Shown here in pieces: positions 3,223-37,088 of a DNA stretch of 64,000 nucleotides. Origin of the DNA: Earliella scabrosa (lineage: Eukaryota > Basidiomycota > Agaricomycetes > Polyporales > Polyporaceae); contig JABYQQ010000016.1 of the NCBI GenBank assembly GCA_022605405.1, forward strand, positions 372,001 to 436,000, written 5' to 3'. Position numbers and translations under genes: made by a program. The notes beneath the pieces are model-generated. The model saw nothing but the letters and a program-made list of their open reading frames with translations, ran no database searches and was not told where the DNA came from. How positions within the stretch are numbered: the first letter of the stretch is position 1; every line of letters begins with the position of its first letter.

Positions 3223-4775
3223 TCACAACACTTCCATTGCACCCCACTCCAATACCCTGAACCGAGTCTCGTCCGACGCCTCCGGCCTGACACCGACAAC
3301 GCTCCTCCAGTCCACGCTTCCAACCCGTTCCCGGGCAGCCGTCCACATCTCAGCCGCCTCTGCGTCTACGCCACGGAAGAGCATGAACACGCGCGTGACG
3401 ACGTCGGGCTTCGGCTCGACCTGCAACTCAGCAGCGCGCTCGTACGCCTGCTGAGGGAGGAACCGAAGCGCAACGTACGGTGATTTCGACAGAGCGGGAA
3501 GCCAGTAGGTGATGAAGTCGTTGCGAGCGGACGTGTGGAGAGTGAGAGCTTTCAGGGCCTGGTCGAGATACGGGAGGAGCATCGCGAAGGGCAGCATCAC
3601 GGAGGTGGGTGTATGCGGTTCCAGGGAGGGGTACGCGGGATCGAAGTGCTCGACGGAAATAGTTGCAGCTTCCCTAGGAGTGCGCGGAGGGCTTGGGGGA
3701 GTCACGAGTCCAGGATTGGTCACAGCCTCCCAGAACAGGTAGGAGAGATGGAGCTTGGTTCCCTTCTCGACTAGGGTCCCGTCTGGACTTGCAGAGACAG
3801 ACCAAGTGAGCTCCTGTGTGCCGTCCCGGGACTTCCGCGTGTCCACGATGGGATAGATGTGCGAGAACGTCCACTGAGGGACGAGTCGGACGGAAACTGT
3901 AGCCTCGGGTATGGACTCAGGGGAAAGAAGGTAGATGACGGGCTTGCCACCTCGCATTCGAAGGACAAAATGTACGACGCTCCCGTCTCGGATGTTGCAG
4001 TCCGCTAGGATCGCACCGTCCGCTAATTGCTCTCCCTCAAAGATAAAACGTTGTTGACAGTTTGGTATGCCTTCCTTTCCCCACACAATACATTTGAGGG
4101 TGTTGACGGTGTCCTGGGAATGAATTGAAACATTCAAAATCTTGCCGGTCAAGCTTGGTGGTGTGAATCAGCAACAGGGAGTTCCTTGCGCTATTGATTG
4201 GGGTGCTCACGTTTTCGCGAAAATCGAGATGATTCTTCCCTTCTCACAGCAGTCCTCGTCCTCCCTAGGCATCTGTACTGTTGTGCACCGACCGGGCACT
4301 GAGCGCGGATTTCTGCGGTGCATGTCAATTCTAGGGCTGTCCCTTCCTGGATCATGTTCATGGCATACTTACCTGGCATGCCGTGGGTCAGCGAGTTGCA
4401 GCTGGCCCGGGTTCATGTCGCTAGTCGAAGAGTCGTCTTGGGGTATCTTCTTGAGAGTCACAGTCGTGTGACTCTCGATGCGTTCGAGCATGTCATCCGA
4501 GATTTCGAGTTCAGTCTCGTCAACATTTGAGGTAGCAACGAGCATATAGTCCCCCTCAGGACGAAGGCGATAGTGAGCGCAGGCTTTGTGAATGATAGTC
4601 TGTTGAGTGAGGGAGTATGAAGGTACGCCCCTAATACGAAGTATGTGAGACGACTCACCTCGACATTTGTGCTATCAAATCCTGCGATGCGTGATTGCCA
4701 TTTGACTCTCAGGACCTTCGGGCTCGCCCTGGCAGGCACTGGCGCAGTCGCTTCTAAGCCCCATAAAGCGTACAT
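3223..4775 (-). CDS. UBL-KPV gene A: N-terminal beta-grasp + ubiquitin-like + KPVIYL domain
   Basis: Four exons (4775-4659, 4599-4373, 4312-4211, 4153-3223) join in phase to 458 codons. Residues 1-115 form the family N-terminal region (LRVKWQSRIAGFD, then KACAHYRLRPEG and TTVTLKKIP), predicted beta-grasp. Residues about 145-218 align without gaps to ubiquitin positions 3-76 and end LRMRGG. Lys6, 11, 27 and 33, Leu8, Ile44, His68 and Val70 are kept; Lys29, 48 and 63 are Ile, Glu and Asp. From 219 comes KPVIYLLSPE and a roughly 240-residue domain with [32 protein letters not shown] and a terminal VLEWGAME. That domain resembles an uncharacterised bacterial family; no activity is known to me. 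The intron after ubiquitin codon 7 is at the same place in gene B. It faces away from gene B across a 0.78-kb shared upstream region. Confidence 0.88.
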
Positions 4776-5554
4776 CGTGATGGGCGGGGCCTTGGAGGAT
4801 GAGGGGAGAGGGAGACACGATCGATAGAGGCCGAGGGAAGGAGGCCGATACGATAAGGTTTGACAGCGGGCTATGCATTCGAGCGTTTAGCCCAAGCTCG
4901 CTCGACCACAGTCCCAGTACTGTACTAGTGGTGGCAACAACGTACAAGTTCGATCTCATCAGGTCTACACGGTGTTCACCAGTGTATTACACAGTCACAT
5001 TTGCCTCCGACTGTCGTTGAAATGGGATATCATTATTCTCCCGCATATAGATGATTGAATAGATCCACTCACAGTAGGATACTAGACGGTCTCAGCAATG
5101 TGCTTCAGTCAATAAGGTACCCCACGATGCATCTCTCGATGCATATGGATGACGAGCGATGCTAGGACGCTTGACACAGCCCATCAGTGCGGGAACACCT
5201 ACAAGCTGCCAATCGAAAACGCCACGGCCCGGGTGTCCGGGAATACAAGGAAATGATTGTTTCTGAGCTCTATACCTGTGACCCTCAGGCTGATAATGAT
5301 AGTCATTAATGCACATGTCCTCCCAGTCTTAGCGTATGTTTGCGACAGCGGACAGAAGCCAACCTCACCAGGATGCCAGGGAAACGAACCACACTGGAAA
5401 AGCCGTGACGTGTATCACATGATTGTGACTCGTCGCGCCACAGTGTGACGCGCTGGCACTTTCGGTCTTTTCCGGTGGACTTTTGTCTTCAGACATATCT
5501 TCTTTCTTGCAGTGGCACGCTGTAACGCTCAGCTCTGGACACATCGTGCACGAT
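4776..5554. other. Divergent promoter region between UBL-KPV genes A and B
   Basis: About 0.78 kb with no supported gene. It must hold both promoters. Near 5403-5452 there is a GTGAC/GTCAC-rich patch (GTGACGTG, ATTGTGACTCGTC) resembling the motifs upstream of gene C and the WD40 genes. Confidence 0.5.
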
Positions 5555-7355
5555 ATGCCACCTGTGAGGACTCACTCTCTTGAACAAGCCTCATTGCGAC
5601 GCATCAGGTGGCAAGTTCGCACTGCCGCAATCATTGCCAGACCATCAACGCAGGTCAGTCACCCAAACATTGCATGGCCCCTTGACGCTGTATCATGATT
5701 CTGACCATGACGCACAGACGCTAATACAAGCGGCGTGCATGCATTTCCGGCTACTGCCCATCCGCGAGGAAGACTTCGTGTTGCTCGGCGATGTCGAGGG
5801 GGATGAGCTTGAGCTCACGGATGAGAGCCTTAGGTTGCTGTCTGATACGGCGGTCATCACCTTGTCAAGAATCAGACTTGACTCTGCCGGGAGCGAGCCG
5901 AACATGCTCCAAATTGGACGCCTTCAGTTTGCGTCCTCAGACCTCCTCTCTCCTCGTACACCGGATCCGAGCAGCTGCTCTACCCAGGTATCGCGGCCAG
6001 ACAAAATCAGAGTCAAGGTTGCGCCCTCGTACGTCTGTTCTTGTTTCTGTCGAGTTGCGTTCTTCTGGACTCGTCCTGATCTTCGTTATTCAGATGGTAT
6101 GGCAATGGAGACAATATCACAATCATTGCAACCCGCAACACTACCTTCAACAAGATCCTTGATATCATCATCGACCGCACGGGAAGATGCCGCGAAGATA
6201 TATATCTTTTGGTGAATGACCAGCGTGCTCATCCGGAACAAACCCTCGACGCGCTCGATGTTGAAGACGGCGACCTCATCCACGCGGCACTCTATCCAAG
6301 GGGGGCTCATCGTATGGACCGGTGGCCCGAGCTCCATGAAACAACCCAAATTTACGTGAAGACGTGAGAGCTCCAAAACTCCGCGTCTTTGATTCTCCTC
6401 ATTAATGACCGCTGTCCCCAGCCGTACCGGTAAAACAATCACTTTGACTGTCTCGCCTGCGGATACAGTTGAGACTTTGAAAAACAAGATCCAAGACAAA
6501 GAGGGGATACCTCCTGACCAACAGCGCCTCATATTCCGCGGACGGCAGATCGAAGATAGCCGCACTCTGTCTGACTACTCCGTCACACACATGAGCGAGA
6601 TCCATCTCGTCTGTCGCCTTCGCGGAGGAAAGCCCGTCATCTACCTCTTTCCTTCTAAACCACTCCCAAACGCAACTGTCTCAATCCGCCTTGCTCCTCA
6701 TTGGACGTTCGCCTACATCTATCCCGTCGTGGGCATCGAGTCACTCCGCGACGGCAGGCAGGCTCTCACCTGGTCCGTCTGCGCCGACACGGACGGGACG
6801 CTCACCGACAAGGACACGGGACTCGAGCTCTCCTACCTCTTCTGGGAGGCGCTCTCGAACCCGGATCTAACGAGACCCCTAAGCCCTCCGTCGAGTCCTG
6901 TCGGAACAGACGAGATGGTTCCTCCGGAGGTCTTCGACCCCGCGTTCCCTCATCTCGAGCCGCACTCCCTTACAACGGTTATACTTCCCTTCTCTCAGCT
7001 CGTCCCGTACCTCGACTGCGTCCTGAAAGACCTCACGCTTCACACGTCCGCGCGCAACGACTTCATCACCTACTGGCTTCCCGCCCTCTCGAAGGAATCG
7101 TACGTCGCGCTCCGCTTCCTCCCGCAGGTTGCGTACGAGCGCGCGGCGGAGCTCGAGGTCGTCCCTACGCCCGACGTCGTCACGCGCGTGTTCATGCTCT
7201 TCCGAGGCATCGACGAAGGGCAGATTGAAGCATGGGCCGATGCAAGGGCAAGGGCCGGGAGCGTTGATTGGAAGAGTGTGGTCGGGGTCAAGTCGGAGGC
7301 GTGCGACGAGAGTCTGTTCAGGGTGTTGGAATGGGGAGCGATGGAAGTTCTGTAA
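5555..7355 (+). CDS. UBL-KPV gene B: three beta-grasp modules (N-domain, SUMO-like, ubiquitin) + KPVIYL domain
   Basis: Exons 5555-5653, 5718-6028, 6094-6363 and 6422-7355 join in phase to 537 codons. After the N-terminal family module ([32 protein letters not shown]) comes a SUMO-like module at about 127-215 (KIRVKVAPS ... [16 protein letters not shown] ... YPRGAH). It lacks a Gly-Gly end. Residues about 222-296 are a clear ubiquitin, ungapped against positions 2-76, ending CRLRGG and running straight into KPVIYLF. Lys48 is Arg and Lys63 is His; Lys6, 11, 27, 29 and 33 and Ile44, His68 and Val70 are retained, while Leu8 is Arg and Leu71 Cys. The C-terminal domain carries [34 protein letters not shown] and VLEWGAMEV. 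The ATG at 5555 is the first in frame; the upstream open frame begins only with a TTG. Confidence 0.9.
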
Positions 7356-7607: not shown

Positions 7608-9222
7608 CTAGCAGCATCGCACCTCCATCGCGCCCCACTCCAGCACCCGAAACAAGGTCGTGTCCCATGCCTCGCTCTGTACACCCACAACGTCCTGCCA
7701 ATTGACTGACGCGGCACGCCCACGGGCTGCAGTCCAGCAGTGCACCTCGTCGCGGGGAACTCCGCGGAAGAGCATGAACACGCGAGTCACGACGTCTGGC
7801 CTGGGCTCGACATGTAGCTCTGCTGAGCGCGCTCGTACGCGACCTGCGGGAGGAAGCGGAGCGCGACATATGGCCGCCTGGAGAGCGAGGGAAGCCAATA
7901 CGTGATGAAGTCGTTCCGTGCCGATGTGTGCAGGGAGAGGCTCTTCAGCGCGTCGTCGAGATAGGGAAGGAGTTCGTCGAACGGCAGGAGGACGGATGTT
8001 GGCATGTCGGGGTCGAGAACGGGGAAAGCAGGGTTGAAGTCCTCGACATGGTATGCATCGGTGTCAATGGGAGTCAGAGGAGGGCTGTCCGCGATGCTGG
8101 AGTCGGAAGTAGCTTCCCAGAAAAGGTACGATAGTTCGAGGTCGCTGCCCTTCTCGACAAGGGTCCCATCCGTGTTGGCAGACACGTTCCATGTGATGCT
8201 CTTCATGCCATGATCGTGGGGTTTCGGGTCGATGACGGGGTAGACGTGTGAGAACTCCCACTGGGGGACGAGGCGTACGGACACAGTGGCGGAGGGGAGG
8301 GGTTCTGGGGGAAAGAGATAGATCACGGGTTTACCGCCGACCTGCTCCAGCATCGCATAAATACGGTCTCCGTCCTTGATGTTGAGCTCTTGGAGCGTCT
8401 GCTCGGGAGCGATCTTGATCTCGCCGAACTTCAAGCGCCACTCTTTTGCGCAGTTGCCGGTGCGTTTCGCGAAATGTGAGAGTACCCGAGCGAACTTGGT
8501 ATCGGGCTTTGCGAGCAAGAGTACTTCCACCCCGGTCGCGCTAGGTATGTTGATCATCCGGTATGTTGGGTATGAACGTGTAGAAAATCACAGACAGAGT
8601 AACGCACGTGTAGACACAGATCTCAAGACGATCGGAGGATACTTTGGCTTGCCACGCGTTCGCTGAGCCGTGCTCTCTGGCTGAGAACGCGAGCACTCAC
8701 CTGTCCTCCGCTTTGACACGACAGAACTCTTGGTCCGCTCCTCCACCACCACATCCGAAGAGTCGCAAGGTTCAATTTCGGGTATTCGACTCAGAGTCAG
8801 CACTGCTTTGTTTGGCACCAGCTTGAGGCTCTCATCCGTCAGCTCCAGTTCATCGCCCTCGATAGCGCCAAGCAGAACGAAGCGGTCTTGCAGACCCTCT
8901 GAGCCTAGACGGTAGTGTTGACAGGCAGCGTGAAGAATGGACTACTTAGTGGTGCATATATAAGTGTCAGAGTTATGGCCGTTAACGCCCCGGGTGTTAC
9001 GAGTGAAGCAACTCACTTCGACGGTCGGTTTGGCCATGATAGCGGCAGTGCGACTATTCCATTTGACGCGCACCAGTGAGCTCTGCTTCGTTTGAGAGCT
9101 TTCCAACGCAGAAGACCGAACACGCGGCACAGTCGTCACTTGTGCAAGGGCGAAAGCTCGGAGTGTGAGACTCAAGACGAAGTGAGATGTCAGCGGAGGA
9201 GGAGACTTCAAGTTGCATCACT
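7608..9222 (-). pseudogene. UBL-KPV gene C: N-domain + SUMO-like (ends EQVGG) + KPVIYL domain, frameshifted
   Basis: Exons end 9016 (start uncertain, ATG at about 9222 if a 41-nt intron is used), then 8941-8701, 8647-8608 and 8540 onward, all in phase. The N-module ([32 protein letters not shown]) is followed by a SUMO-like domain (EICVYTATG ... RVLSHFAKRTG ... IAPEQTLQELNIKDGD ... MLEQVGG). It ends in Gly-Gly immediately before KPVIYLF. The C-terminal domain is typical until YERAQ at about 7820. There five bases stand where sister genes have three, so the frame shifts and meets a stop at 7787. The remaining part ([19 protein letters not shown] ... VLEWGAMEV) stays open in the next frame to 7608. 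No intron can repair this. Recent pseudogene, or a sequence error in an otherwise intact gene. Confidence 0.75.
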
Positions 9223-9554: not shown

Positions 9555-11774
9555 ATGGCATCATATATGCAGCGGCTGAATGATCTCGAGCAGCAGATCG
9601 CTCAACATGAAGCACTGGAAGAGGAACGCGAGTCAGACCCCTTCGTCGCGCTGTTGAAGGATGTCACCGCGGTGGCCCGTGACGCGGACGCAAACGCAGC
9701 CCCAGACCTCCCCGATGTCGTCAACAAGGCAGGGAGCATCTTGGACAGCGCGATCGACTGGGCCTACGGCGACGGCGACTTTGACTTCTTGCCCTCATAC
9801 GCGCACACAGACGAGCTCCCTCCCGTTCAGGACACATTGCGAACAATTGGTACGACAGCCTTTCGTCATTCTGACGTCGGAAATGACGTTGCACTCATGC
9901 ACATGATTCTGGTCTTTCAGTGGGTTTCGGAGCTGCGACGAAATTGTTGAGCATCCTACTACGGGGATTCGGCCCAGGCAGTGAGTGTTTCTGAGTACTC
10001 GTGTGTCTGCCTACACCAATGATACGCGCATGCTTGGACGATGCAGAAGCTATGCCTCCAGAGGCTCGCGACGAACTCATTCCCCCGCACTGGACCGCAA
10101 CACCTCGTCCATATCCAAAGTCCACTCGGCTCTCGCGGTTTCGCAACGATGTGACTACCTCGGCAACGGACGACACGCCTCTCGCTCGCACCATCCTCCA
10201 AGCGCGCTGCGAAGTCCAGTCGGACCAGTTCCCCTGCCCCATCGATGCGAAGATCTCGTCTGACTCATCCGCCTTTGTGATCATTGCGCAGGGCGGATGG
10301 AAGCACCGCGATCCGGTCCTAGGGATCCACGTCCTCGACGAGGGGACTGGCCAACGGACTCGCAGCGTCTACTCTGGGCGGGATGCGAATGCCGATGGTG
10401 AAGAGGGCGAGTCCACGTATGTTCACCAGCACTATCGCAGCATGGCCCTCGAACCCGGACTTGCAGAGGTCGCATACTCGCTCGCGCTGGACACGGAGCA
10501 CAAGCTCGCGGTCATCGCCGACTCGAACCGCATCAAGACCTTTTACTGGGGACGCGCTGGAGAAGTCACGTTCGGCGACTGGCAGCCCGCGCGTGGCAAG
10601 AACGTGCATACGCTTGCAAGCAAATGGCCGTACGACGGCCCGATCGCGGTACTACCGGGCGGTCGCATCGCACGTGCGGGGAAGGGCGGCATCGCGCTCT
10701 GGGACATGGCAAGCCTCCCGACGCACACGGGCGGCAAGCGCGTCGGGCGAGGCAAGGTGAGCCTCGAGGACGTGTGGCGCGACCACGACAACGACGAGAT
10801 CGAGCGGTCGCCTGGTAGCGCACCCTCAAATACCATTCGATTCCCTCAGGAAGACAGGGAGTTCCTTCCTGCGGTTTGGCAGCGGCACGAGCCATCTGGA
10901 CACATGCTGGCTGGGGAGAACGCGCGGAAGACCGAAGGCCGGTACGGGTGCTATGCGCTTGATCTTGAGGCTGGAGGCAAGAAGGTAACGCGTTTCCTTG
11001 GCCACGGCGGACACGTCGAGGCGTTCGCGCTCAGTGATGGGGACGCAAACACGTTCGTGACGGGATGCAGCGACGGCTATGCGAGGATGTATGACGTTCG
11101 CCACCCGCTCCCGGTTACGACTCTCGATGCGGGCAACTCGGACGAGTTTTGTTCGGCCGTGCAGTTCGCCCACCCCGACGGCGTCCCTGGTGCGTGTCAC
11201 CGCTCGTTTGAGTCCTGTGCAACGTAGCTGAGCCGAACCGGTAGTCGTCTTCACTGGAGGCGACCGATCACAGAGCATCAAGACGTGGGACATCCGCGCC
11301 CGCGCGGTGGTGTACGAGCTTGGGACTGGCAACAACGGCGTCCGTGCGCTCGCATGGGACGCGAAGCGCAGTGCGTTGTATGCGGCGACCGAATGCGATT
11401 ACATCGACCGCAACGGATACACGTTCGACTACCGCAAGGCTCGGATCCCGCGCTGGGCGAGGCTGCACCCCGAAGACTTCGATGGCGACCTCAATATGGA
11501 CGGAGAGGACGAGGACGAAGAGTACGACAGTTTGGACGATGACGACGAGGTGTGCTGGCCGGATAAGGCGTACCATGGCGAGACGTTCTTCGGGTATGCG
11601 TACGACGCAGGGGAGCATATGCTGCGTGAGTGCCTAGCTTACCACGTTCTCCACCTGGTGATGTTGGGCTGACCTGTCTCCCTTGCAGTGCGATACGGCT
11701 TCAAGGAGGACCCGGACATGACGGAGCTTCCCGAGTACGGAAGAGCGACACTTGAAAGCGACAGTTACTATTGA
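9555..11774 (+). CDS. WD40-repeat protein 1 with N-terminal helical region
   Basis: Five exons (9555-9849, 9921-9980, 10047-11189, 11245-11625, 11689-11774) join in phase to 654 codons. Residues 1-100 are helical and charged (YMQRLNDLEQQIAQHE, then SILDSAIDWAYGDGDFDFLPSYAH). The rest has WD40-type strands: a blade with IAVLPGGRIARAGKGGIALWDM, then RFLGHGGHVEAFALSDGDAN with CSDGYARMYDVRH, then FTGGDRSQSIKTWDIRARAVVYEL and GVRALAWDAKRSALYAAT. An acidic loop (DGEDEDEEYDSLDDDDE) sits between the last blades. Probably a protein-interaction scaffold; partners unknown. Two paralogues lie at 25.4-27.7 and 51.4-53.2 kb. The ATG is placed by agreement with copy 2 (MPTYLERLN). Confidence 0.85.
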
Positions 11775-12943: not shown

Positions 12944-13370
12944 TCACTGGTATGATACGGAGGGAGGCCGCGGTGGAGATTTTTCAACCACATGGGGTAC
13001 ACTATGTTGTCCACCAGAGGCAAACGGCACGGAATTGGTAACCTTGTTCAGAGTAACGGTTGCACCATCTCGCAGCCTCTTAATGAGATCATCGGTGAGT
13101 TCGACCTGATCACCACCAATATCGATGACGAGAGCCAGCTCATCCCAGACCAAAATGTGTGCGCGCCTTCCTAATCAAAGTCTGCAGGTTACGCGTATGA
13201 AAGCTCATGGTCAGGACCCGTGGCTGATGATGGACTCGCTCACCTGAACTGTGCCCTCGTTGTCGAATCCTGCTAGTCGCGATTGCCATTTTACCTTAAC
13301 CAAGGAGGGAGTATCCACGGACGTCGCAACAAGTTCTCTGTCGTTGTACGCATAGATCGCTGGTCGGACG
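12944..13370 (-). pseudogene. UBL-KPV relic: N-terminal module only
   Basis: On the minus strand, LVKVKWQSRLAGFDNEGTVQ, a GTGAGC donor, a matching acceptor and TLIRKARTHFGLG reproduce the first two exons of the UBL-KPV genes. A one-base slip and a stop follow, then DELALVIDIGGDQVELTDDLIKR continues in the next frame. No ubiquitin, SUMO or KPVIYL sequence follows. It is a truncated, frameshifted fragment, closest in wording to genes A and E. Confidence 0.75.
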
Positions 13371-15427: not shown

Positions 15428-16371
15428 TCATCGTCCCACAGATCCCGCTCGCAGCGAACGGCGCAAAATGCCCGTCTTGACCCGATAATACTGCAAGAAG
15501 ATGCACTGATCCATCTTCACGTCCATCGGGTCCTCCCACCTCCTCTTCCCCCTATCCATTGGCCCCACCCGCGCAAACACCATCGCGTTCGGCGCGTCCG
15601 CCATCGTGACATGCCACTGCTCCTCGTCGCTCCCGGGCGCAAACCCGCCCCCGTTGACGAGCAGCCGGCTGCCCGCGCGCGCGCCGCGGAACGCGACCGT
15701 GCCCCACTCGGCGGCCTTGGTGTAGCCGGAGACGAAGACGAGGTCCTTCTCCTCGAGGTCGATCCCAAGCCGGGTGCGCGCGAAGGCGCGCCAGTGCGCG
15801 ATGTGCTTCAGGACGTAGTCCCGGATGCGCTTGTCGCAACTGAGCGAGGTCGTCTTCGCGCCGCCGTGCAGGAGGAGGAGCGCGCCGGAGTCTGTGTTGA
15901 CTTGGTACGAGCTGCCCCAGGTCGTCAGCGTGCTACCGGGGGTGCCCGGTGTTCTGCATCCCAGGTTGAATGTCAGCGTGGCCTCCCGTTTCTATCGCAG
16001 ACACCGAAGGTAGAGACAACGACGCACCTGGGCACGCTGTCGCTGACCGTGGTCATCGTAAACGATCGTTTGCCTGTCGCAGACTGGACGCCTTCGCTGT
16101 GGAGGACGGACTGCATGATGTCTCGCGTGTGCTCCGACGCGCCGTCGCACGTGAACGTCTCAAACGCGTCGGGCACGCCGCGCATGTTCACAGGGTGCGT
16201 TGCCTCGAGCATCGTGTTGAACAGGAAACAAAAGTGGCCGCGCTGGATGTAGCCCACGTCGCCGAGGCGCACCTCGCCGAACTCGGAGGAGGGCTCGGGT
16301 CCCCAGAGGGGGTAGCCGTACCCTAGTGGCTCAAGCGATCTGGCGTAGATGTCCCAGGGGGCTAGGGACAT
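15428..16371 (-). CDS. DIYAKEL-family protein copy 2 (short form)
   Basis: Exons 16371-16028 and 15953-15428 join in phase to 289 codons. The N-terminus carries WDIYARSLEPLGYGYPLWGPEP, RLGDVGYI and FCFLFNTML. The second exon holds the central domain: NTDSGALLLLHGGAKT, LSCDKRIRDYVLKHIAHW, LGIDLEEKDLVFVSGYTKAAEWG, then DQCIFLQYYRVKTG near the end. It lacks the long C-terminal exons of copies 3, 5 and 6. No signal peptide or membrane segment is evident, so it is probably cytosolic. The family appears basidiomycete-specific to me and its role is unknown. It is divergently paired with copy 3 and is the sister of copy 4: the first exons are the same length (344 nt) and the intron is in the same place. 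Confidence 0.85.
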
Positions 16372-16979
16372 TGTGGGCAGCGAGGATGGGGTGCGTCCCA
16401 GTAGTCTGGTCTATTAATCGGAGCTCATCTGTCCCTTCGCAGGAGCTGGTATGGAGTGCTTAATCGTTGTGGGATCAGTACGTGACTATCGGTCTATGGA
16501 AGTCGAAGGGTATGACTAACGCCAAACCTATGGGGTCCGGATAGGAACTTCATCAAATGTAGGGATTATGTTGCTCCACCTCAGTGCGCGCAGGGAAGTC
16601 GCTTCCAAGAGCATCGATACCGGAGGGAGAGGGGCGGACGAAGATGGCCTGCATCATTCGTACTACCTCCAACATTGTTGCGCCGTCTTCAAGCTAGGTT
16701 GTTGGGATACGTTGGGGGCTTGCTCGTCTCCCAGAATTTATGTCAGCTCGCCTGCTGCCGCAAGTCATGGAACGGAAGATCGGTAACCTCCTGTATCGTG
16801 GGTCGACTAACGTGCACGTATTCATCCCTCAGCGTTCAATTCTTGTCGACTTGACCTCGTCATTCATGCCGTAGCTGTTGTTGCGCTTGTCCGCGCTGCG
16901 GGAAGCGTGATCTCAACGTAAAGACCGTCATAAAGACCGCCGACAGCTCCCGCCCAATACCTTCACTGTCACCCCTTTC
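16372..16979. other. Divergent promoter of DIYAKEL copies 2 and 3
   Basis: About 0.6 kb without a supported gene. On the copy 2 side, GGTGCGTCCC and TATTAAT lie about 25 and 45 bases upstream of the ATG. Copy 4 has GGTGCGTACCCC and TATATA at matching places. Confidence 0.5.
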
Positions 16980-18658
16980 ATGGCCACGCCATACTACGAC
17001 ATCTACGCAAAGGAGCTTTCGCGATACAAGCTCGGTCATCCACTCTGGTGTCCGGACCCAGACCCAAGCTTTGGCGCAGTACGCCTCGGAGATGTCGGCT
17101 TCCTGGAGAGTGGCCACTTCCGCTTCCTCTTCAACGCCATCGACCCATCGCTCAATCAGCGCGGCAACCCTCCGAACTTTGTGAAGCTCACAATCCCCGA
17201 CGAATGGCATTCCAAGCAAGAGATCAAGGACTTTATCACGATGCCGACGATGTACGGGAGCAGCATCCAATCACTCTCGATATCTCCGGGTGCCTCTCTG
17301 AAGTACGTTGTCCCTCTGTACACGCGATTGGGTACTGATGGCCTTGCTAGTGGAGGTCCGATAGGCTTAGGCGCGAGTTGGGAGTTCGAATGCGACCGAG
17401 CTGCGGGAGCGTTCCTCCTCCTCAAAGGCCACGGGCATCGGACGAACCTCGACTGCGGGCTGCACATCAAAAACTACATCTCGGACAACCTCGCAAACTG
17501 GTACACCTTCGCGAACGACACACTCGGGATCGGTCTGCGCGACGAGGAGATAGTGTTCGTCTCGGGCTTCACGAAGACCGCCGTCTGGGCTGCGGCGTCG
17601 TTCAGCCACGACAGCGTCGACAAGGCTGTGAAGCTCTCTGGGAGCTGCAGTCTGCCCGGTGCGGCGTCGGGGAGCGTGCAGCTCGCGGTGCAGATGTCCG
17701 ACTCGCATGGCGTCGCGATCGACACGCGCGTCGGGCCGCCGGAATTGGCTTCGCAGTGGGAGCAGCTCTCGCCGGAGCAGCTCACAGGGGCGGACCAGTG
17801 TATATTCCTCGAGTACTATCGGATGCGCCGGCGTCTGGTGTTCCTCAAGACCATTGTCGCGGCGGCCGGGCCCCACGAACTTCCGCCTCCAGATCCACCC
17901 GTGACCGCGAATCCTGCAATGTCCTCGTTCGAGGAGTTGATTGTATCTGAGCAGGCATGTGTCGATCACGATTGCCCAGACGTAGGTCATGCGCAGGTGA
18001 GCCACAGGTTCTCTTGAGTGTCCATCTCGCGCTAACCACATACCTCTACCAGGAGCCGTATGACCTTCTTGACTGTCTCTTGGACTACATGTTGGAGGTT
18101 TGTTTCTTATCATTTCAATGAATTACGCCACTTACATTATGCAGCATACGGGCGCAGACATCGCAATTGCGTCTTATGTAGATGTGGCATCGCCCATGCG
18201 GGTAAGCACCTGGGCACTCGGGCACCCTCCGTCGCGTTTCTTGTGTCTAACCGTTAGCTACCAGGATTGCACGACAACAAAGGATATGACCAGCACACTC
18301 CAACCGAGCAGCTTGCGAGTAGTCACCACGGAAAGCGGTGAGTGGACGAGGCGAGAACGAACGTCATGAGGAATTCAGTCCTGAATGTTGTTGCGCAATA
18401 GGTCTCACAGCCGTGTATCAATCGTTTACCCGGATGAGCCGCTCTCATTCGATATGTGTAAGGAGCAAAGACTCGGCGCGATTGAGCCACCGTTCAAGGA
18501 TCTCTGCCAAGTCTCTACCGAGAACAGTTGGACCAGCTATCCTAACGAAGGTGTCCTCACCAAGGCGGCGAGATTCAATGGTCAGTCGTTGTCTGACACA
18601 GACTTAGCATGCACGAGACTTGTTATGGGATGCATCACATGCGAATTCGATTCCCTGA
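16980..18658 (+). CDS. DIYAKEL-family protein copy 3 (long form)
   Basis: Seven exons (16980-17302, 17351-17996, 18053-18097, 18145-18201, 18258-18337, 18402-18580, 18618-18658) join in phase to 456 codons. Motifs in order are YDIYAKELSRYKLGHPLW, RLGDVGFL, FRFLFNAID, then after the first intron WEFECDRAAGAFLLLKG, LDCGLHIKNYI, LGIGLRDEEIVFVSGFTKTAVWAAASF and DQCIFLEYYRMRRR. The small 3' exons encode PYDLLDCLLDYMLE, GADIAIASYVDVASP and a tail ending DLLWDASHANSIP, which recalls the LLWE end of the Mks1/DUF3295 signature in copy 6. The last intron (37 nt) is short, so the extreme 3' end is less certain. Function unknown. Confidence 0.8.
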
Positions 18659-18837: not shown

Positions 18838-19798
18838 TCACTTATCTACCACTCTCCGAGAGCGCAAAACGCCAGCAGTTTTCACTCTGTGGTACTGGAT
18901 GAATACGCATTGGTCCCTCTGCGTCCCCTGTGGTTTCTTTTCCCTCCGAGACTCCCGATTCATGGGGCCGATGCGGGCGAAGACTATGGCATTCGACGCG
19001 GGCCCCTGCCTGGCATCAGCGGAATCACCGCATGTTCGCCTCGACCTATCCGACGCAGTGGAGGGCCCATCGGTGATGGTGACGTGCCACTCCTCCTGGT
19101 CGGTCCCCGATGTGATGACCAGTCGGCTGCCGGGTCTCGCCCCGCGAAACGCGATGACGCCCCACTCCGTAGCCATGCTGTGTCCGGAGACAAAGAGAAG
19201 GTCTTTCTCCTCGAGGTCAATGCCGAGGCCGTCGCGTGCAAAGGTGCGCCAATTAGCGATGTGCTTGAGGATGTAGTCGCGGATGTGGTTATCGCAGTCG
19301 AGCTTGGTCGTCTTCGCACCCCCATTTAGGAGGAGGAGGGCGCCGGACTCGGTGTTGCACTGGTATTGGCCTTCCCACGATTTCAACGACGCGCCTGGAA
19401 CCCTAGTGAACATCAATGTCAGTATCCAGCCCATGAGCTAACACAAGCAAATACCTGGATGAAATAGAGGCGGTTGCGGATGAATCAATGTCGGTAACCC
19501 CTTGGCTATGCAAGGCTGACTGCATGATGTCAACCACATCTGAGTTGTTGGGAGGGGATGCATGCTCGTAGGTGAACCTTTCGAAGTGCTCAGGCACCCC
19601 TCGTTTGTTGGTGGGGTGACTACGAGGGAGCATGGTGTTGAAGAGGAAGTAGAAGCGACCATGTTGGATGTAGCCAACATCGCCCAGGCCTACAGGACCG
19701 AAGTCCGAAGACGGCTCCGGCCCCCAGAGGGGGTATCCGTACCCCATTGGCTCGAGCGACTCGGCGTAGATGTCCCAAGCGGCCAGTGCGGAGGACAT
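18838..19798 (-). CDS. DIYAKEL-family protein copy 4 (short form)
   Basis: Exons 19798-19455 and 19402-18838 join in phase to 302 codons. The first exon (WDIYAESLEPMGYGYPLWGPEP) is 344 nt, identical in length to that of copy 2. The second has NTESGALLLLNGGAKT, LDCDNHIRDYILKHIANW, LGIDLEEKDLLFVSGHS and DQCVFIQYHRVKT. Compared with copy 2 it carries an in-frame insertion of roughly 20-25 residues (around ASDRSRRTCGDSADARQ), possibly a retained or newly coding intron. It is head-to-head with copy 5 and, with it, forms the second unit of a duplicated gene pair. Function unknown. Confidence 0.83.
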
Positions 19799-25412: not shown

Positions 25413-27686
25413 TCACCAATAGTTGTCGCCTGCCGAAGAAGCATGGCCATACTCGGGGAGCTCTGTCACCTCCGGATCCTCCTTGAATCCATATCGCACT
25501 GCACGAAGATACCCAGGTCAGCAGAGCAAGGTTGCGCGGGCGTCGCGCATGAAGAGGAAAAGAGAACTCACGCAAGACATGCTCGCCCGCATCATATGTG
25601 TACCCGAAGAACGTCTCGCTGTGGTACGCCCGGTCCGGCCAGTTGTGCACCCCGTCGTCGTCGTCCATGCTGTCATACTCGTCCTCTTCGCCGTCCGCAG
25701 CGCCCTCATCGTCGAACTCCTCGGGACGCAGCCTCGCCCACCGCGGGATCCGTGCGGGCCGGTAGTCGTGCGTGTACCCAAGGCGGTCCATGTAGTCGCA
25801 TTCGGTGGCGGCGTAGAGCGCGTTGCGCTTCGCGTCCCACGCGAGCGCGCGCACTGCATTGTTCCCGGTCGCGAGCTCGTACACCATCGCGCGGGCACGG
25901 ATGTCCCACGTCTTGACGGACTGCGAGCGCTCGCCTCCGGTGAAGACAACTGTCACACACAGTCAGCGGAAATGCATCCAGTCTGCGGGTGACGGGACAT
26001 ACCAGGGATACCATCGGGGTGAACGAATTGCACGGCGGAACAGAACTCGCCCGACTTGCCCGCATCGAGGGTCAAGACCGGGAGAGGGTGGCGCACGTCG
26101 TACATCCTCACACATCCATCGCTGCATCCCGTGAAGAACACGTTCGTGTCTCCGTCGCTGATCGCGAACGTATCGACGTTCCCGCCATGGCCGAGGAAGC
26201 GCGTGACCTTCTTCCCCCGGTCCTCCAGGTCGAGGGCGTAACACCCATATCGACCCGCAGTCCTGCGCGCGTTCTCGCCGGCGAGCATGTGCCCAGATGG
26301 CTCGTGCAGCTGCCAGACGGCTGGCGCAAAGTCCTTGTCCTCCTGGGCGAACTGGATCGTCCTGGAAGGCGCGCTGCCGGTAGACCGCTCGATCTCGTTA
26401 TATTCATTGTCGCGCCACGAGTCTTCGGTGTTCAGCTTGCCAGCGCCGACGCGCTTACCGCCCTTGTGGGTAGCGAGGGTCGCCATGTCCCAGACCGCGA
26501 TGCCGCCCTTTCCGGCGCGTGCAATGCGCTCTCCAGGGAGCACCGCGATGGGGCCGTCGTATCCCTTTTTGCAGGCCAGCGTGTGCACATTCTTGCCGCG
26601 CACGGGTTGCCAATCGCCAAACGCGACGTCTCCGGAGCGCCCCCAATAGAAGGTCTTGATGCGGTGCGAGTCCGCGACGACTGCGAGCTTGTGCTGGGCA
26701 TCCATCACGAGCTGGTAGGCGATTTCGGAGAACCCGGGCTCTAGAACCATGCTGCGGTAGTATTGGTATGCGTATGTATCGGCGCCCTCGTCCTCGTCGT
26801 CATCATCCTCGTCATCTTCATCTTCATCTTCATCTCCATCCTCGTCTTTGTCCCTGTCGTCTCGATGACGAGGCGGTGCTTGTCCTTCGCCTTCGTCGAG
26901 GACTCATGTGAATGCCGAGGATCGGATCGCGGTGCTTCCATCCGCCCTGGCCGATGACTGCGAGTGCAGAGGAGTCCAAAGATATTTTGGCGTCGATGGG
27001 GCAGGGGAATGGGTCTGACTGGATTTCGCAACGCGCCTGGAGGATGATCCGAGCGAGCGGCGTGTCGTTCGTCGCAGAGGTGGCCACTCCATCGCAGAAG
27101 CGCGAGAGGCGTGTGGATTTGGGGTTGGGACGGGGAGAGGATGTCCAGTGTGAGGGAACAAGCTGCTCGCGTGCGGCGGGGGGAAGGCCTGCATGCACCG
27201 ACGCATAATATGTCGATGCTCCAGAGTAGGGCCGAGAGATCTGAGAACTCACCTCCTGGGGCGAGCCCCGTGAGCCCCAAAAAGAGTCTCAGCATTTGCT
27301 CTACGGCTCCAGAGCTCACTGAGACACCGGGATATGACACGGCGATGGTGAGTATGAGCCACTCCGAGGTTCTAGAGACGAGTGGCTCTCTCACCGTTTG
27401 GTCCCATTGGGTCCTCGATGAGAGGCGTCTCGGCTGTATGCGCGTATGAGGGCAAGAAATCGAATTCGCCCTCCCCGTAAGCCCAATCGATCGCATCCTC
27501 GAGGATGCTCCCCGCTCTCTTGACGATATCGGCGCAGTTCGGGGCAGCAGCTGTGTCGGCCTCGCGGGCGACGGCCACGACGTTCTTCAAGAGAGCGACG
27601 TAGGCGGCATCCTCGGGCTCTTCCTGCCTTTGATGTTGAGCGATACGCCGCTCGAGCACGTTGAGGCGTTCCAGATACGTGGGCAT
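25413..27686 (-). pseudogene. WD40-repeat protein 2, paralogue of WD40-1, with a 4-base frameshift
   Basis: Exons 27686-27395, 27318-27253, 27188-26003, 25949-25572 and 25498-25413 match WD40-1 intron for intron. The N-terminus (YLERLNVLERRIAQH, SILEDAIDWAYGEGEFDFLPSYAH) and all WD blades are present (RAGKGGIAVWDM, RFLGHGGNVDTFAISDGDTN, FTGGERSQSVKTWDIRARAMVYEL). At 26904-26907 four extra bases (ATGA in coding sense) sit between ILGIH and VLDEG, breaking the frame at about residue 175. Sequence on both sides is otherwise intact and in good codon usage. An acidic Asp/Glu tract follows the break. No splice site removes the insertion. Recent pseudogene or base-calling error. An in-frame ATG at 27797 is an alternative start. 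Confidence 0.75.
26805..26850. repeat. GAT/GAA-type acidic microsatellite in WD40-2
   Basis: An imperfect trinucleotide/hexanucleotide tract (coding sense GATGAA and GACGAG units) encodes a run of Asp and Glu between the first blades. WD40-1 has only a short acidic stretch here. Confidence 0.5.
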
Positions 27687-30403: not shown

Positions 30404-31891
30404 ATGCCTCGTATACACGACACTCCTGAGACCCTCGCCCAAAGCTCGTTCATACGCGTCAAATGGGATGGGCGCACTGCAGCGATCATAGCGAAACCCG
30501 CGGTCAGGGTGAGTTCTCCCGCCTTTACGCGCCGAAACTCTGGTTGAAGATTGGAGAAATCTTTGGTCCAGTCGATCGTTCATGCCGCTTGTCGTCACTA
30601 CAACCTGGATACGGACCAATCGCAGCAGTTCGTTCTACTCGGCGCATTGGACGGCGACGAGCTCGAGTTGACGGACGAAAGCCTCAAGTTGCTCTCGAGT
30701 ACAGCTGTGGTTACTCTGAGCAGGCTGGGGCCTGGTAACGATGCTACCAGTCTGGTGCCTCGGGTTGGCCCCAGCGCTCTTCCTCCACAAGGCATGTCCT
30801 AAAAGGCTCAGATCTACCTGGCTGAATTGCCCTAACTGCGGCGCTTCGCCCTCGCTGATATAGCGTTGCCTGCTCCGCGTAGCATTACCTTCCAACTGTG
30901 GGAGTAAGTACCCACATTCAACTTGATACTTCCCCTAGCTGATGTGTCTTCCTCCACGATATGTTATAGCCTACACTCAGAGATGATCTCTTTCCGTGCT
31001 TCGCCCACTTCGAAGTTTGGTCAAGTTATCAGGAACTACGCTCGATGTGTGGGAAAGTGCGAAGACCAACTCCGATTTTCCTTTGACGGCCGTCGGATGC
31101 ATCCCGAGGAAACCATTGAACAGTGCGGGATCGAGGACGGGGACGAGGTGATGGTCATGCTGGAGCAGCGTGGTCGGAAGCCGGTCATCTACCTCTTTCC
31201 TCCTACGTTGCTTTCAACTGCGACTGTCTCCGTGCGCCTTGTACCTCAATGGGACTTCTCGCACGTCTACCCCCCGGCCAAGTCGACAACGATGGACAAC
31301 GGGATGAAGAGCATCTCATGGAACGTGTCTGCCGAGCCGGACGGAACTCTTACCGAGAAGGGCAGCAACCTCGAGCTCTCCTATCTCTTTTGGGAGGCTG
31401 TCTCCGATTCTCATGCGCCCGACACTCCACCCCTCACACCTGTCCATGAAGGCCACGTTGAACGATTCCACCCCGCATTCCCCTCCCTCGAGCCGGATAT
31501 GCCCACCGCGGTCCTTCTGTCGTCCAGCGACCTCCTCCCGTATCTGGACAGCGCGCTCCGAAGCCTCTCCCTGCACACATCAGCGCGGAACGACTTCATC
31601 ACCTACTGGCTGCCCTCGCTCTCAAAGCAGCCATATACCGCGCTCCGCTTCCTTCCCCAAGCAGTGTACGAGCGGGCGGCTGAGCTGGAGGTCGAGCCGA
31701 AACCCGATGTTGTTACGCGCGTATTCATGCTCTTCCGCGGTGTCCCGTCCGACGAGTTGGAGATGTGGCAATCTACGCGTGAGCGCTCGGCGACCATCGA
31801 CTGGCCACGCGTTGTCGGGGTGACCGAAGACGCATGGGATTCAAGTCTGTTCCGCGTGCTGGAGTGGGGGGCGATGGAGGTCAACGTCTAA
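30404..31891 (+). CDS. UBL-KPV gene D: N-domain + SUMO-like (ends EQRGR) + KPVIYL domain
   Basis: Exons 30404-30508, 30557-30791 (or -30734), 30864-30903 and 30970-31891 close in phase to 433 (or 414) codons. Exon 3 is 40 nt, exactly as in gene C. The N-module reads FIRVKWDGRTAAIIAKP and [16 protein letters not shown]. The SUMO-like module reads SITFQLWD, FGQVIRNYARCVG, LRFSFDGRRMHPEETIEQCGIEDGDE and MLEQRGR. The usual Gly-Gly end is Gly-Arg, so SUMO-protease cleavage would not be expected. The KPVIYL domain ([41 protein letters not shown]) is complete. The exon 2 donor is either GTAACG at 30735 or a GC donor (AAG|GCATGT) at 30792; both give the right phase. Confidence 0.85.
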
Positions 31892-32566: not shown

Positions 32567-35293
32567 ATGGCGACTCCGGCTTGGGATGTCTACGCCCGTG
32601 AGCTGATGCCATTAGGATTCGGTCATCCATTGTGGGGACCAGAGCCCTGTCTCCAGTTTGGAGGGGTGCGCCTCGGGGACGTTGGGTACCTGCGCGATGG
32701 ACGCTTCCGTTTCCTCTTCAACACCATGCGTAGCGCTGACGATCCCGTCAACGCGAAGAGAGGCGTTCCGCCTGGTTTTGAAGTCTTCGATCCTCCCGAT
32801 CCCATGATTGTTCACGACGTCAACGAGATCACACAGACAACGCTTCACAGCCAAAACTTGCAATCGACCTGTGTCTCCGCCAGTGCATCCACCGGGTGTG
32901 GATCGTCCCGTTCTTGTGCAAGCTCCTGGCTGACCATTGTTCTAGTGAGGCATGTGCATCGGCGTCCCTCGGACTACGATACCAGTGCAACGAAGAATCG
33001 GGTGCACTGTTGGTACTGAGTCGACCGGGGCATAAGACCTCTCTCGACTGCAGCATGCACATTCGTCGATACATGCGCACCCACCTCGCCAGCTGGTGCG
33101 ACTTCGCTAATGGCCATCTCGGCATCGGACTCGAGGACAAGGACATCATCTTCGTTTCTGGATTCGTCAAGACTTCCGTATGGGCCACAGCTGCGTTCCA
33201 CAACAGCAACGCCAGCGGCGAACTCGTCATCGCGGCCGGGTGTTTCGGACCGTCGGCGTCTGGCGAGTTCCGGGTCTCCTTGTCTCGAGGATCGAACGCC
33301 TCCGTCTTCTCGCGAGCTGGTCCACTTGACCGATTGGCCAAGTGGAACAAGTCCGGTGAGCTCGACGAGGAATGCGACCAGTGCATCTTCCTCAATTACT
33401 ACAAGATGAAGAACAGGAAGTGGAGGCGTCCGGCTGTCATGCGGGCGGCTGCTGGACCACATCAACTCCCGCACGACTCCGATGATAGCGACGGCGGGTT
33501 CGCTGGGAGTCACTCTGGGGGGAGTCTGAACAGCTCGTCAGATGGAAGCTTCGACCAATTCACTCAGGTCGGTGCTTCCAATGCATGTCGAGTGGGCGAA
33601 TCTCATATGTATACAGGACTACGACCCTGTTGACCAACTACTGGACTACATTCTAGAGGTGTGCACCGATTCCCTGCGTTCGAGAAGCTGATTGCAAATT
33701 TGTTCGCAGAGCGACGACATGACCACTGGTACAGCATGTGCGTCTTATGAAGACCTTATGAATCTGTTCCCTGTGAGTCCCCGAGTACATCCAACACAGT
33801 ACAAAATAAGACTAAACCTTGATCTGTGAAGGCCGGGAAGATGCCATGTGACGTGCGACAATCGCTTGAAAGTCTTCGTCCCCCTCTTCTCCGTGACGGA
33901 TCGGTCACCTTTACGCAAAGCAGCGCTGCAAGTGAGGAATTTAGCCCTGGTTTGCGATTGGTGCTGACGTTGATCAACAGGCGGGCCGGTTGCGGCGGGG
34001 TCGCATCCAGACACGACAGAGGAGATCGAGGAACAATATGAACATGACTCCACCGATGGTTCATCATATCACGTTGACCTCGATCTGGATCAGGCGAGCG
34101 CGACTGGTAGCCCAAGCCAAGCTCAAGGTCGGAAGCAGACAATTCAAGCTCCCCACGCTCCAGTTTTTGATGTAGGGACCGCCTTGCACACTGATAGCCA
34201 CGACAAGACCGCCATGATGATGACGTTCGACTTCGATTCCGTCGTCTCTGTCTCATGGCGCGAGAACATGGCCCAGCGTTCGGACAAGTGGTGGCAATCC
34301 GAGTCGAATCGCACAAACCTCTCCAGCCTGACCCTGGTCGCTACATCTCCCACTAAGACGAGCATTCAGAGTCGCTCAACAGGGAAGGACAGAGGGGTAG
34401 GCCTCCCGCAGGTGCGACTCGGTATCGTTATCAGTCCATCGGGGTACAAACTAACATCGGCACAGGCGCGGTTGCGACAAGTCGTAGAAGAGGCCCAAGA
34501 ACAGCTCGAGATGTTTGCGAAGGTTCCGAAGCAGTCATATTCCAACCCCACTCGTGGGGGCCAGCCGGGCTTGCTGTCTCAGCTAATCAAGGCCAACTCG
34601 AGTGTCATTACCCCAGGTCCCTTGCCCCATATCGACCTCCCCCAGCCAGACTTGGCGCAACGTAGCCGACGCGGACAGGCAGCGATGTTCCCGACGCACA
34701 AGAGCTCTGCTGCAGTCCCTCTCATCACTGAGGTGACGGCAGAGGCCGCGGCAGTCCCACTTCCGGCCAGACAGGAGCAGAAACTCGAAGGACCATTTGA
34801 GGACTGTTCGAAGGCGCAGGGGATGATGGATACGAAGGGCTACGAGCAGCTCTCCGAGTCTACCGCTTCACCATCGCGGAGCCTCGCGCATGAGTCGCTT
34901 GCTGCCCTCGCGCACCCCACTCGTCGCCGCCAACATTCCGATTGCAGCCCTCACCCTCACACCGTCCAGATCAGCACCCCGTGGATTCAACTGAACCACG
35001 GGTGCAACCTCTCTATCCCTGCCGCTCCGATGACTCCTCGGACGGCGCGCCGTCAGATGCTGCAGACGGAGCTCTCGGAGAGCTTACGCCGCAACTTGCT
35101 ATGGGAGCGATGTGTGAGTAGGCCTCACGGAGCCGCGAGACGCGCGAGTATTGCGGGGAACGGGTCGAGGCCTACAATCAGTCCGGATGGATTGTCTGGC
35201 TCGCCGGATGTTGGAGAGACGGAGGAACGACGACGTCGCGTGCTGGAGCGGTGTCGCAGCTGGGCACACGAGTATCATTACTCGGGGTGGTGA
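32567..35293 (+). CDS. DIYAKEL-family protein copy 6 fused to a Mks1/DUF3295-like C-terminus
   Basis: Seven exons (32567-32895, 32946-33567, 33617-33658, 33710-33772, 33832-33931, 33981-34411, 34466-35293) join in phase to 804 codons. The N-terminal half has WDVYARELMPLGFGHPLWGPEP, RLGDVGYL, YQCNEESGALLVL, LDCSMHIRRYMRTHLASW, LGIGLEDKDIIFVSGFVKT and DQCIFLNYYKMKNRK. Small exons give YDPVDQLLDYILE and KMPCDVRQSLESLRPPLL. The C-terminal half is Ser/Pro-rich and includes FAKVPKQSY, GLLSQLIK and, at about 722-742, ARRQMLQTELSESLRRNLLWE, which resembles the DUF3295 signature of fungal Mks1-type regulators, ending HYSGW. Mks1 in yeast is a cytosolic regulator in retrograde/nitrogen signalling. Whether this is one natural gene or two run together needs transcripts; the closing phases favour one. 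Confidence 0.75.
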
Positions 35294-35685
35294 CCCAGGC
35301 TTGTGGGTGCTTGTACACTTGCGTATTTGTTGGTTCTGTTTGTTGGCCTCTTTGTTGCACCTCCCAATAGTCCACTTCCATCCACATCCTGGAGTTTTGT
35401 GGTAGTCACGGCTGAGACGCTCTAGTCGGGCCGGCTGATCCGACGAGCGACTCAAATGCAGAACTGTCCGTTGTAGGACCTTGTAGGACCGTCCCTTCCC
35501 CCTTCAATAGGTTCGTCCAAACGTCTGCCTAGGGGAGACAAGTACTGTCCCGCCAGCGAGCGGTTGCTGGGGATCGCGAATGCCACCTCCTTCGTACCTT
35601 CTCTGACTCAACAAGTTCATCTGATTCTACGTCAGACTCCGTCCCGACCTTCTTGCCCGAACGGTTCGAACACAATCCGCGTCCT
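35294..35685. other. Spacer before UBL-KPV gene E
   Basis: About 0.39 kb, mostly untranslated leader and trailer; no gene seen. Confidence 0.45.
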
Positions 35686-37088
35686 ATGAGGGAGATGGCT
35701 GCTGCAACAGCTGTTCGGTCAACATTGGGACACGCGGCCCTCCTCCGGGTCCAGTGGGAATCACGGGTGGCAGGATTCGACAATGATGGCATCGCAGAGG
35801 TGAGTGACCGAAGCTTGGGTGATCTAGGAGACATACCGAGCAGGGATCACTTGCAGACCATTGTCAAGAAAGCTTGCGCACATTTCCGTGTTGGATGTGG
35901 CGAGGACCGGTTCGTCCTCGTCACAGACTTCGATGGTGAGAAGCTCGAAGTCACAGATGATGTTCTGAAGCGGCTTCCGCACGGCACCTCCGTGTGTCTC
36001 GAGGAGATACCCCAGCGTAGCGGTCCTGCCAGTGCCATCCAAGAGCAAGACAGAGCTGAAGCGACCAACAAAGCACACCCGGACCCAGTGAATCCTGCTG
36101 GTCGTCCTCCCTCGCCACATGCGCCTGTCGTCGTACGCAGGCCGCCTCGGTAAGTGGGTGTGCTCTAATGCTGTAACTCAGTAACATGAACTGCACCTTC
36201 AGGGACTTGAATGATTCTGCATATGTGATTCCGTTTCCGCCGTTCCCCCATTACGGACGCCCTTCGCGTTCTCCGTCGCCTGAATTCAGAGCGTCTTCGC
36301 GTTCTCGGTCGCCCCGATATAGACGTCGTTCGAGGTCACCCATCGGTGACTGCCGGAAACCCGTTATCTATCTTTTCAGTCCTGAACCGCTCCCCAACGT
36401 GAGCGTCTCAGTTCACCTTGTTCCGCAATGGACTTTCACCCACGTCTATCCCCTCTCCGACAAACCCACTGCCATGCAAGATTCCAAGCGATTCATTACG
36501 TGGTCCGTTTCCACGAACCCCGACGGGAGTCTTATCCACAAGGACACCGGGATTGAGCTGTCATACCTATTCTGGGAGGCTGTCGCAAGCCCTCACACAC
36601 CGCCTCCCAGCCCACGCTCGGATCCTGTTCACGAGGCGCAGCTGCCGCTCAACGTGACCGAGGTGTTTGATCCAGCCAACTCATCGCTCAGCCCCGAAAC
36701 TTCAACGGCAGTGCTGCTTCCGCTCGAGCAGCTCCTGCCGTACCTTGACCATGTGCTGCAGCGGCTCACCCTGCACACGGCGGCCCGCAACGACTTCATC
36801 ACCTACTGGCTGCCCAAGCTATCGCAGCAGCCATACGTGGCGCTCCGATTCCTGCCACAAGCAGTCTACGAACGCGCGGCTGAGCTCGAAGTGCAGCCTG
36901 TGCCGGACGTCATGACCCGCGTGTTCATGCTCTTCCGAGGCGTGCGGGCCGAGGACGTTGACGCGTGGGCGAACGCTCGCAAAAGGGTCACTCAAATTGA
37001 CTGGGTCGATATTGTTGGCATAATGCCCCAAGCGCATGACCGAAGCGTCTTCCGCGTGCTCGAATGGGGCGCGATGGAAGTATGCTGA
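35686..37088 (+). CDS. UBL-KPV gene E: N-domain + Arg/Ser linker + KPVIYL domain (no ubiquitin/SUMO)
   Basis: Exons 35686-35799, 35857-36149 and 36203-37088 join in phase to 430 codons. The N-module reads LRVQWESRVAGFDNDGIAE, KKACAHFRVGCGED and GEKLEVTDDVLKRL. Where sister genes have a ubiquitin- or SUMO-like module there is a Pro-rich linker and an Arg/Ser stretch (about 160-186: RSPSPEF, SRSRSPRYRRRSRSP) before CRKPVIYLFSPEP. The KPVIYL domain from 188 is full length ([43 protein letters not shown]). The RS stretch resembles those that are phosphorylated or target nuclear speckles, an inference only. First and second introns match the other copies. The ATG follows a non-ATG open frame and is the first in frame. 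Confidence 0.87.

Follow-up and report, generated by a model that had tools for sequence, protein, structure and literature searches.

KPVIYL genes of the window

We analysed a stretch of 64,000 nucleotides from the wood-decaying basidiomycete Earliella scabrosa (Polyporales; contig JABYQQ010000016.1, positions 372,001 to 436,000 of the forward strand), hereafter called the window. It contains five genes (A to E) and one relic of a family of fusion proteins, in which a C-terminal domain, here called KPVIYL, is preceded by a module of ubiquitin or SUMO type or by a linker. A further N-terminal domain is found upstream of the module or linker in all five genes. Counting KPVIYL matches across the 51.7 Mb genome, six out of eight, from five genes, fall within 34 kb of the window. 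This clustering is not due to chance. Of the remaining two, one is an open KPVIYL copy with an LRGG tail on contig C14 and the other is a weak match on contig C13. The genes and their parts are the following:

3223..4775, minus strand: gene A, start codon read by eye; N-terminal domain ~4727-4444, ubiquitin-type module split by an intron (main part ~4163-3946), KPVIYL domain 3945-3226; open frame with module and KPVIYL in one frame 3223-4167
3946..3951, minus strand: Gly-Gly codons of gene A (tail MRGG)
5555..7355, plus strand: gene B; N-terminal domain ~5590-5876, SUMO-like module without Gly-Gly ~6095-6289, ubiquitin module split by an intron (main part ~6422-6629), KPVIYL domain 6630-7352; open frame with ubiquitin and KPVIYL 6393-7355
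6624..6629, plus strand: Gly-Gly codons of gene B (tail LRGG)
7617..9121, minus strand: gene C; N-terminal domain ~9100-8783, SUMO-like module ~8554-8333, KPVIYL domain 8332-7617; open frame with module and KPVIYL 7787-8587
8333..8338, minus strand: Gly-Gly codons of gene C (tail QVGG)
12965..13336, minus strand: relic, N-terminal domain alone with stop codons inside
30437..31891, plus strand: gene D; N-terminal domain ~30437-30727, SUMO-like module ~30959-31177, KPVIYL domain 31178-31888; open frame with module and KPVIYL 30908-31891
31172..31177, plus strand: Gly-Arg codons of gene D (tail QRGR, second Gly lost)
35728..37088, plus strand: gene E; N-terminal domain 35728-36015, Arg/Ser-rich linker, KPVIYL domain 36357-37085; open frame with linker and KPVIYL 36177-37088

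Gene B is annotated as protein P0001 (497 amino acids, KPVIYL part 100% identical) and has its SUMO-like module in an upstream exon, and the annotated protein P0043 covers the second half of gene D. By our reading of the sequence, the intron in the ubiquitin module has the same position in genes A and B, following the first strand. The KPVIYL part of gene C shifts frame near 7820, so gene C is either a pseudogene or contains a sequence error. An earlier annotation made from the letters alone (the sequence-only reading) had given the N-terminal region and KPVIYL to all five genes and the relic. All five genes have both, gene C in a broken frame, but the relic only holds the N-terminal domain.

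The same annotation had read the middle part as ubiquitin (A), SUMO-like plus ubiquitin (B), SUMO-like (C and D) or an Arg/Ser linker (E), and both the reading frames and Pfam agree with this. The Pfam ubiquitin family matches the modules of gene A (5.6e-16) and gene B (1.4e-24). Rad60-SLD/SUMO-like matches gene C (6.4e-6, 26.3 bits) and gene D (1.4e-11, 44.5 bits) above its curated cut-off of 23.8, and in gene E the Pfam scan recognised no ubiquitin-like (UBL) module. In a search of the PDB the gene D module matched SUMO2 (1.4e-9) and the gene C module matched Smt3 (1.8e-6), the latter ranking below polyubiquitin chains, which score only by their summed repeats. With NCBIfam, genes A, B and D gave only partial matches to Rad23, located around their UBL.

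In genes A to D, the module and KPVIYL are encoded in one open exon with zero residues between them. The letters at the boundary are MRGG|K in A, LRGG|K in B, QVGG|K in C, QRGR|K in D and GDCR|K in E. Thus the module stops exactly where KPVIYL starts, as the sequence-only reading had it, though D has lost the last glycine. The Q-x-G-G processing tail of SUMO is present in C and broken in D.

Processing tails and module exchange in the relatives

The KPVIYL part of the window matches 771 database proteins at E <= 0.01. We took the best 120 of these 771, 92 new listed sequences and the five window genes, making up a sample of 217 sequences. KPVIYL could be placed in 209 of them, which gave 180 units with at least 60 residues upstream. 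For labelling, the final six residues of each module were masked and one ubiquitin and one Smt3 reference were used, resulting in 98 ubiquitin-type, 53 SUMO-type and 29 units of neither type. As P0001 and P0043 duplicate the window genes B and D, we recounted without them and obtained 178 units, window genes included, with 97, 52 and 29 units, respectively.

Among these 178 units, Gly-Gly (GG) directly precedes KPVIYL in 64 of 97 ubiquitin-type, 47 of 52 SUMO-type and 11 of 29 units of neither type. At P4, ubiquitin-type modules have Leu in 57 of 97 cases, and SUMO-type modules have Gln in 41 of 52. Judged from these sequences, the tail follows the module in the basidiomycete relatives, being mostly LRGG-like in ubiquitin-type and QxGG in SUMO-type modules. 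None of the bacterial KPVIYL domains examined (0 of 118 and 0 of 77; the bacterial family is described below) has GG before its first lysine, which indicates that the GG belongs to the module.

The ubiquitin-type modules (n = 98) have a mean identity to ubiquitin of 50%, tail excluded, and the SUMO-type modules (n = 53, duplicate included) a mean identity to Smt3 of 28%, with GG kept in 47 of 53. Even in the most diverged third of the SUMO-type modules, which are only 16-26% identical to Smt3, GG is found in 17 of 17. For the 73 strong ubiquitin-type modules, with a mean identity of 59%, the most conserved of the 76 positions is G75 (67 of 73), and R74 and G76 are each kept in 58 and L73 in 53.

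Because type-specific tails persist, most clearly in the diverged SUMO-type modules, we propose, with a probability of roughly 0.48, that most members are precursors that would be cut after Gly-Gly by the ubiquitin- or SUMO-type protease their module calls for. LRGG tails would be recognised by a deubiquitinase and QxGG tails by a Ulp1-type SUMO protease. The cut would release a KPVIYL domain starting with an N-terminal lysine, a destabilising residue under the N-degron rule, and would leave behind a fragment of N-terminal domain, UBL and GG. An exchange of the module would put the same KPVIYL domain under a different protease.

Several observations weigh against this proposal. Gene D ends in GR and gene E is without a module, and GG is absent from 38 of the 149 labelled modules, 33 of them among the 97 of ubiquitin type and 5 among the 52 of SUMO type. 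Cutting is therefore not necessary for every member, and an uncut mode must also exist. In the most diverged third of the ubiquitin-type modules, GG is kept in just 16 of 32. Across 10 independent contrasts on the tree, a recognised UBL is not linked to GG (1.6 with, 1.3 against and 7.1 without difference). Furthermore, the first lysine of KPVIYL is invariant in bacteria too and so does not speak for cleavage at this position, and a tail which arrives together with its module matches it by descent, so that a matching P4 residue alone is no proof of selection. The sequence-only reading had suggested that UBL proteases release or regulate one effector domain. The type-specific tails and the module changes on the tree described below speak for this part; the cut itself is something we infer, and D, E and the 38 modules without GG do not fit it.

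The same D, E and 38 modules would be expected if the modules are never cut and serve as fixed docking or degradation tags, either for proteasome docking as in Rad23 and Dsk2 or as in ubiquitin-fusion-degradation, the GG being a flexible hinge. Tails of LRGD (6), LRGA (4) and LRGE (2), which are expected to resist cutting, are present in ubiquitin-type modules, and the ubiquitin hydrophobic patch is mostly retained in the strong ones (I44 in 52, V70 in 52, H68 in 53 and L8 in 43 of 73). A hinge, however, needs no Leu-Arg or Gln before GG, yet L73 and R74 of the ubiquitin-type modules are conserved above average, and Gln together with GG persists in SUMO-type copies that are far diverged. Moreover, uncut UBL domains such as that of Rad23 are generally without a terminal GG. 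We regard uncut tags as possible, if rather doubtful, for the family as a whole.

It is unlikely, in our view, that the fusions are neutral, with ubiquitin and SUMO recombining into a dispensable and fast-duplicating family and GG merely inherited. The decay of GG in the most diverged ubiquitin-type modules would fit this, as would the relic and the frame-broken gene in the array, but the top conservation of G75 in the strong ubiquitin-type modules and the maintenance of GG in the most diverged SUMO-type modules do not. The part of PMC11354881 available to us raises the possibility that ubiquitin fusions have no functional significance.

For the comparison of module and KPVIYL domain we used stricter labels, which divide the 180 units into 81 ubiquitin, 31 SUMO, 39 unclear and 29 without module; the latter two groups stand outside the ubiquitin/SUMO comparison. 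The KPVIYL tree was built by a quick method and has 177 rows, 109 of them labelled, with P0001 and P0043 dropped. Setting the middle module against the KPVIYL clade, the module type changed at least 8 times on the tree, compared to 23-30 times with shuffled labels. Looser labels gave 16 changes, a count we rejected. It includes Suillus pairs that represent one drifting module with borderline labels, so the strict count of 8 is used.

Of five contrasts on supported branches, an average of 3.7 have a P4 residue that agrees with the module, 0 have one that disagrees and 1.3 show no difference. With strict labels, testing tail against module in pairs gives a median p of 0.125, and significance is unreachable with five pairs; Fisher's test gives p = 2e-8 for tail against module, with relatedness ignored. 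The clearest contrast is P0013 (ubiquitin, LRGG) versus P0014 and P0017 (SUMO-type), where the KPVIYL domains are 86% identical but the modules only 17-20%, in a clade with support of 99/98.

SUMO-like and ubiquitin modules occur together only in the gene B protein, 1 of the 174 module-bearing proteins found. Its upstream SUMO-like module is without a tail and its ubiquitin module is intact, so that on its sequence gene B looks like an exchange caught midway. The N-terminal domain of gene B is 56-57% identical to those of C and D and 31-34% to those of A and E; its KPVIYL domain is 67% identical to that of A and 60% to that of D. These identities suggest a chimera, which stays a suggestion because the KPVIYL tree does not resolve the position of B. 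Nine proteins seemingly have two modules, and in five of these there are two KPVIYL units. The annotated proteins P0122, P0123, P0125, P0126 and P0129 each have two UBL-KPVIYL units. Gene models that have been merged may account for these proteins; the five with two units could alternatively be genuine tandem fusions.

Origin and properties of the KPVIYL and N-terminal domains

With tblastn, the KPVIYL domain matches a surface protein of Ruminococcus albus (E 1e-3), which aligns end to end with 29-34% identity to the fungal copies. Scanning bacterial genomes gave at least 538 confirmed KPVIYL stretches, of which 78 loci were kept, each carrying the label Ruminococcus or Oscillospiraceae. A profile built from five bacterial sequences matches 7,997 proteins, that is, every one scored, and the organism names given for the best 120 of these 7,997 are Clostridia, Firmicutes or their kin. 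In 398 genomes of the phylum of R. albus, R. albus included, a combined model matches five, one of them by its UBL part only, leaving KPVIYL in 4 of 398. No Pfam or NCBIfam family matches the KPVIYL domain in the scanned window genes and relatives. By sequence similarity, KPVIYL shares ancestry with a large bacterial family which includes clostridial lipoproteins and Ruminococcus surface proteins. In a tree of 25 fungal and 34 bacterial rows, a single branch with support of 100/100 separates the two groups, as expected from one transfer, in either direction, between the two groups sampled.

The fold of KPVIYL is predicted to be a beta-sandwich. In the alignment, 35 columns are at least 90% conserved in fungal and bacterial groups alike. 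The polar residues conserved at this level in both groups are K1, E73, D182, R186 and E234. There is no Cys, His or Ser among them, so a binding module would be expected rather than a standard hydrolase. An N-terminal hydrophobic stretch was found in 105 of 120 bacterial proteins but in 0 of 119 full-length fungal proteins, which have long upstream regions. The fungal proteins are therefore probably cytosolic or nuclear, unlike most of the bacterial ones seen.

KPVIYL-like domains were also seen in viral records. A structure search of BFVD returned A0A3G4ZNZ8, an uncharacterised protein of the giant virus Terrestrivirus sp. (406 amino acids), as the sole viral match at E <= 0.001 (E 9e-12, template modelling score 0.62, 17% identity). 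A faecal phage record without annotation encodes a KPVIYL domain (MT835506.1:4425-4970), which matches a clostridial protein with E 4e-29 and 38.6% identity. In R. albus (G001, L101:2959-3690) and in a second genome of the same phylum (G172, L092), a start resembling a signal peptide is followed by a near-eukaryotic ubiquitin domain without terminal GG. The R. albus protein is surrounded by a series of similar proteins of secreted type, and its genome also has KPVIYL proteins.

The N-terminal domain is predicted to have a ubiquitin-like beta-grasp fold: the model of P0029, with high predicted local distance difference test (pLDDT) values, has the order strand-strand-helix-helix-strand-strand-helix-strand. 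Pfam CIDE-N (cut-off 23.5) scores 20.3 bits in the whole P0047 protein and 23.5 bits in its domain alone, and at best 18.7 bits in P0029; 11 of the 13 members had no CIDE-N match, including all five window genes. The Crinkler N-terminal domain of Pfam scored 13.4 bits in P0029, below its cut-off of 24.6, and did not appear among the matches of the remaining relatives in the scans.

The weak resemblance to CIDE-N in two relatives would fit the idea of a bait or tripwire, where the UBL lures hostile enzymes (deubiquitinases or deSUMOylases) from mycoviruses, bacteria or rival fungi, an illicit cut frees active KPVIYL, and module exchange tracks the attackers. So would modules which are exchangeable while their protease tails are kept, and a local array including a relic and a broken copy. 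We hold this to be quite improbable: the fungus's own deubiquitinases and Ulp1 should cut intact tails constantly, PADLOC gave no match for six proteins, and KPVIYL is not known to be toxic or to act in immunity.

Two other repeated families lie in the window. Six copies of a family with the motif PLGYGxPLWxPEP near its start are interspersed among the KPVIYL genes; Pfam matched none of the four stretches that were scanned. A WD40-like gene is present in three copies, the first two ~73-74% identical and inverted and the third 39% identical.

2285-2608, minus strand: PLGYGxPLWxPEP family
15476-16377, minus strand: PLGYGxPLWxPEP family
16911-18014, plus strand: PLGYGxPLWxPEP family
18880-19777, minus strand: PLGYGxPLWxPEP family
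20643-21644, plus strand: PLGYGxPLWxPEP family
32567-33468, plus strand: PLGYGxPLWxPEP family
9995-11224, plus strand: WD40-like gene, first copy
25968-27186, minus strand: WD40-like gene, second copy
51439-52461, plus strand: WD40-like gene, third copy

Relation to known fusions and meaning

Ubiquitin-ribosomal fusions (eL40, eS31) and polyubiquitin have in common with the KPVIYL genes that a module is joined directly at Gly-Gly to its partner. In the ribosomal precursors, ubiquitin comes first and is near-identical, whereas the module of the KPVIYL genes is internal, diverged (50% mean identity for the ubiquitin type), exchangeable with a SUMO-type module and fused to KPVIYL. Rad23/Dsk2-type proteins likewise have a UBL within a larger cytosolic protein, but this UBL is N-terminal and uncut. 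The clostridial lipoproteins and Ruminococcus surface proteins have the same KPVIYL domain end to end, mostly with an N-terminal signal, lipoprotein or membrane-type segment, and GG in none examined.

The closest precedent is given by Sibbald, Hopkins, Filloramo and Archibald 2019 (PMC6332867). According to the available text, 'ubiquitin-IMP' fusions occur in 87 species besides Bigelowiella natans and in 63 of 88 fungal species examined, mostly with ubiquitin in the middle; their partners resemble bacterial integral membrane proteins, and fungal sequences group apart from bacterial ones. Similarly, A and B join ubiquitin to a partner with bacterial homologues and carry it in the middle of the protein, between the N-terminal domain and KPVIYL, and our fungal KPVIYL rows branch together and apart from the bacterial ones, with fungi and bacteria sampled. 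We infer that both are probably the same family. The name 'integral membrane protein' would be accounted for by those bacterial KPVIYL proteins that are short and start with a hydrophobic segment, whereas the full-length fungal proteins studied have no such segment. The word SUMO is absent from the main text of PMC6332867, and as far as this source was available it mentions neither SUMO-type modules, module exchange, tail conservation nor the N-terminal beta-grasp domain. In our literature search we found these fusions nowhere described with SUMO-type modules, with exchanged modules or with conserved tails, and no paper naming KPVIYL or KPVIYLYP. The earlier statement that no described pathway has this layout thus needs narrowing, since the ubiquitin version probably has a precedent, while it stands, as far as our search shows, for the SUMO-type versions, the exchange and the tails. 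The present analysis adds the SUMO-type versions, an exchange of modules in which the tails are retained, and the N-terminal beta-grasp domain that the genes have in common.

More speculatively, the family might act in basidiomycete signalling or defence, with an imported bacterial domain held by modules of ubiquitin or SUMO type that can replace each other. The trigger would then be a cut made by a deubiquitinase or deSUMOylase, either from the host or from an invader, and exchange would rewire the family to another protease pathway.

Natural fusions of ubiquitin to non-ribosomal proteins are known, the fungal ones being without an assigned function in the parts of the literature examined. 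Fungal members are now added to a very large bacterial domain family which the Pfam and NCBIfam scans do not name. With ubiquitin and SUMO replacing each other naturally while the protease tail is retained, the KPVIYL fusions make the question of precursor processing directly testable in yeast.

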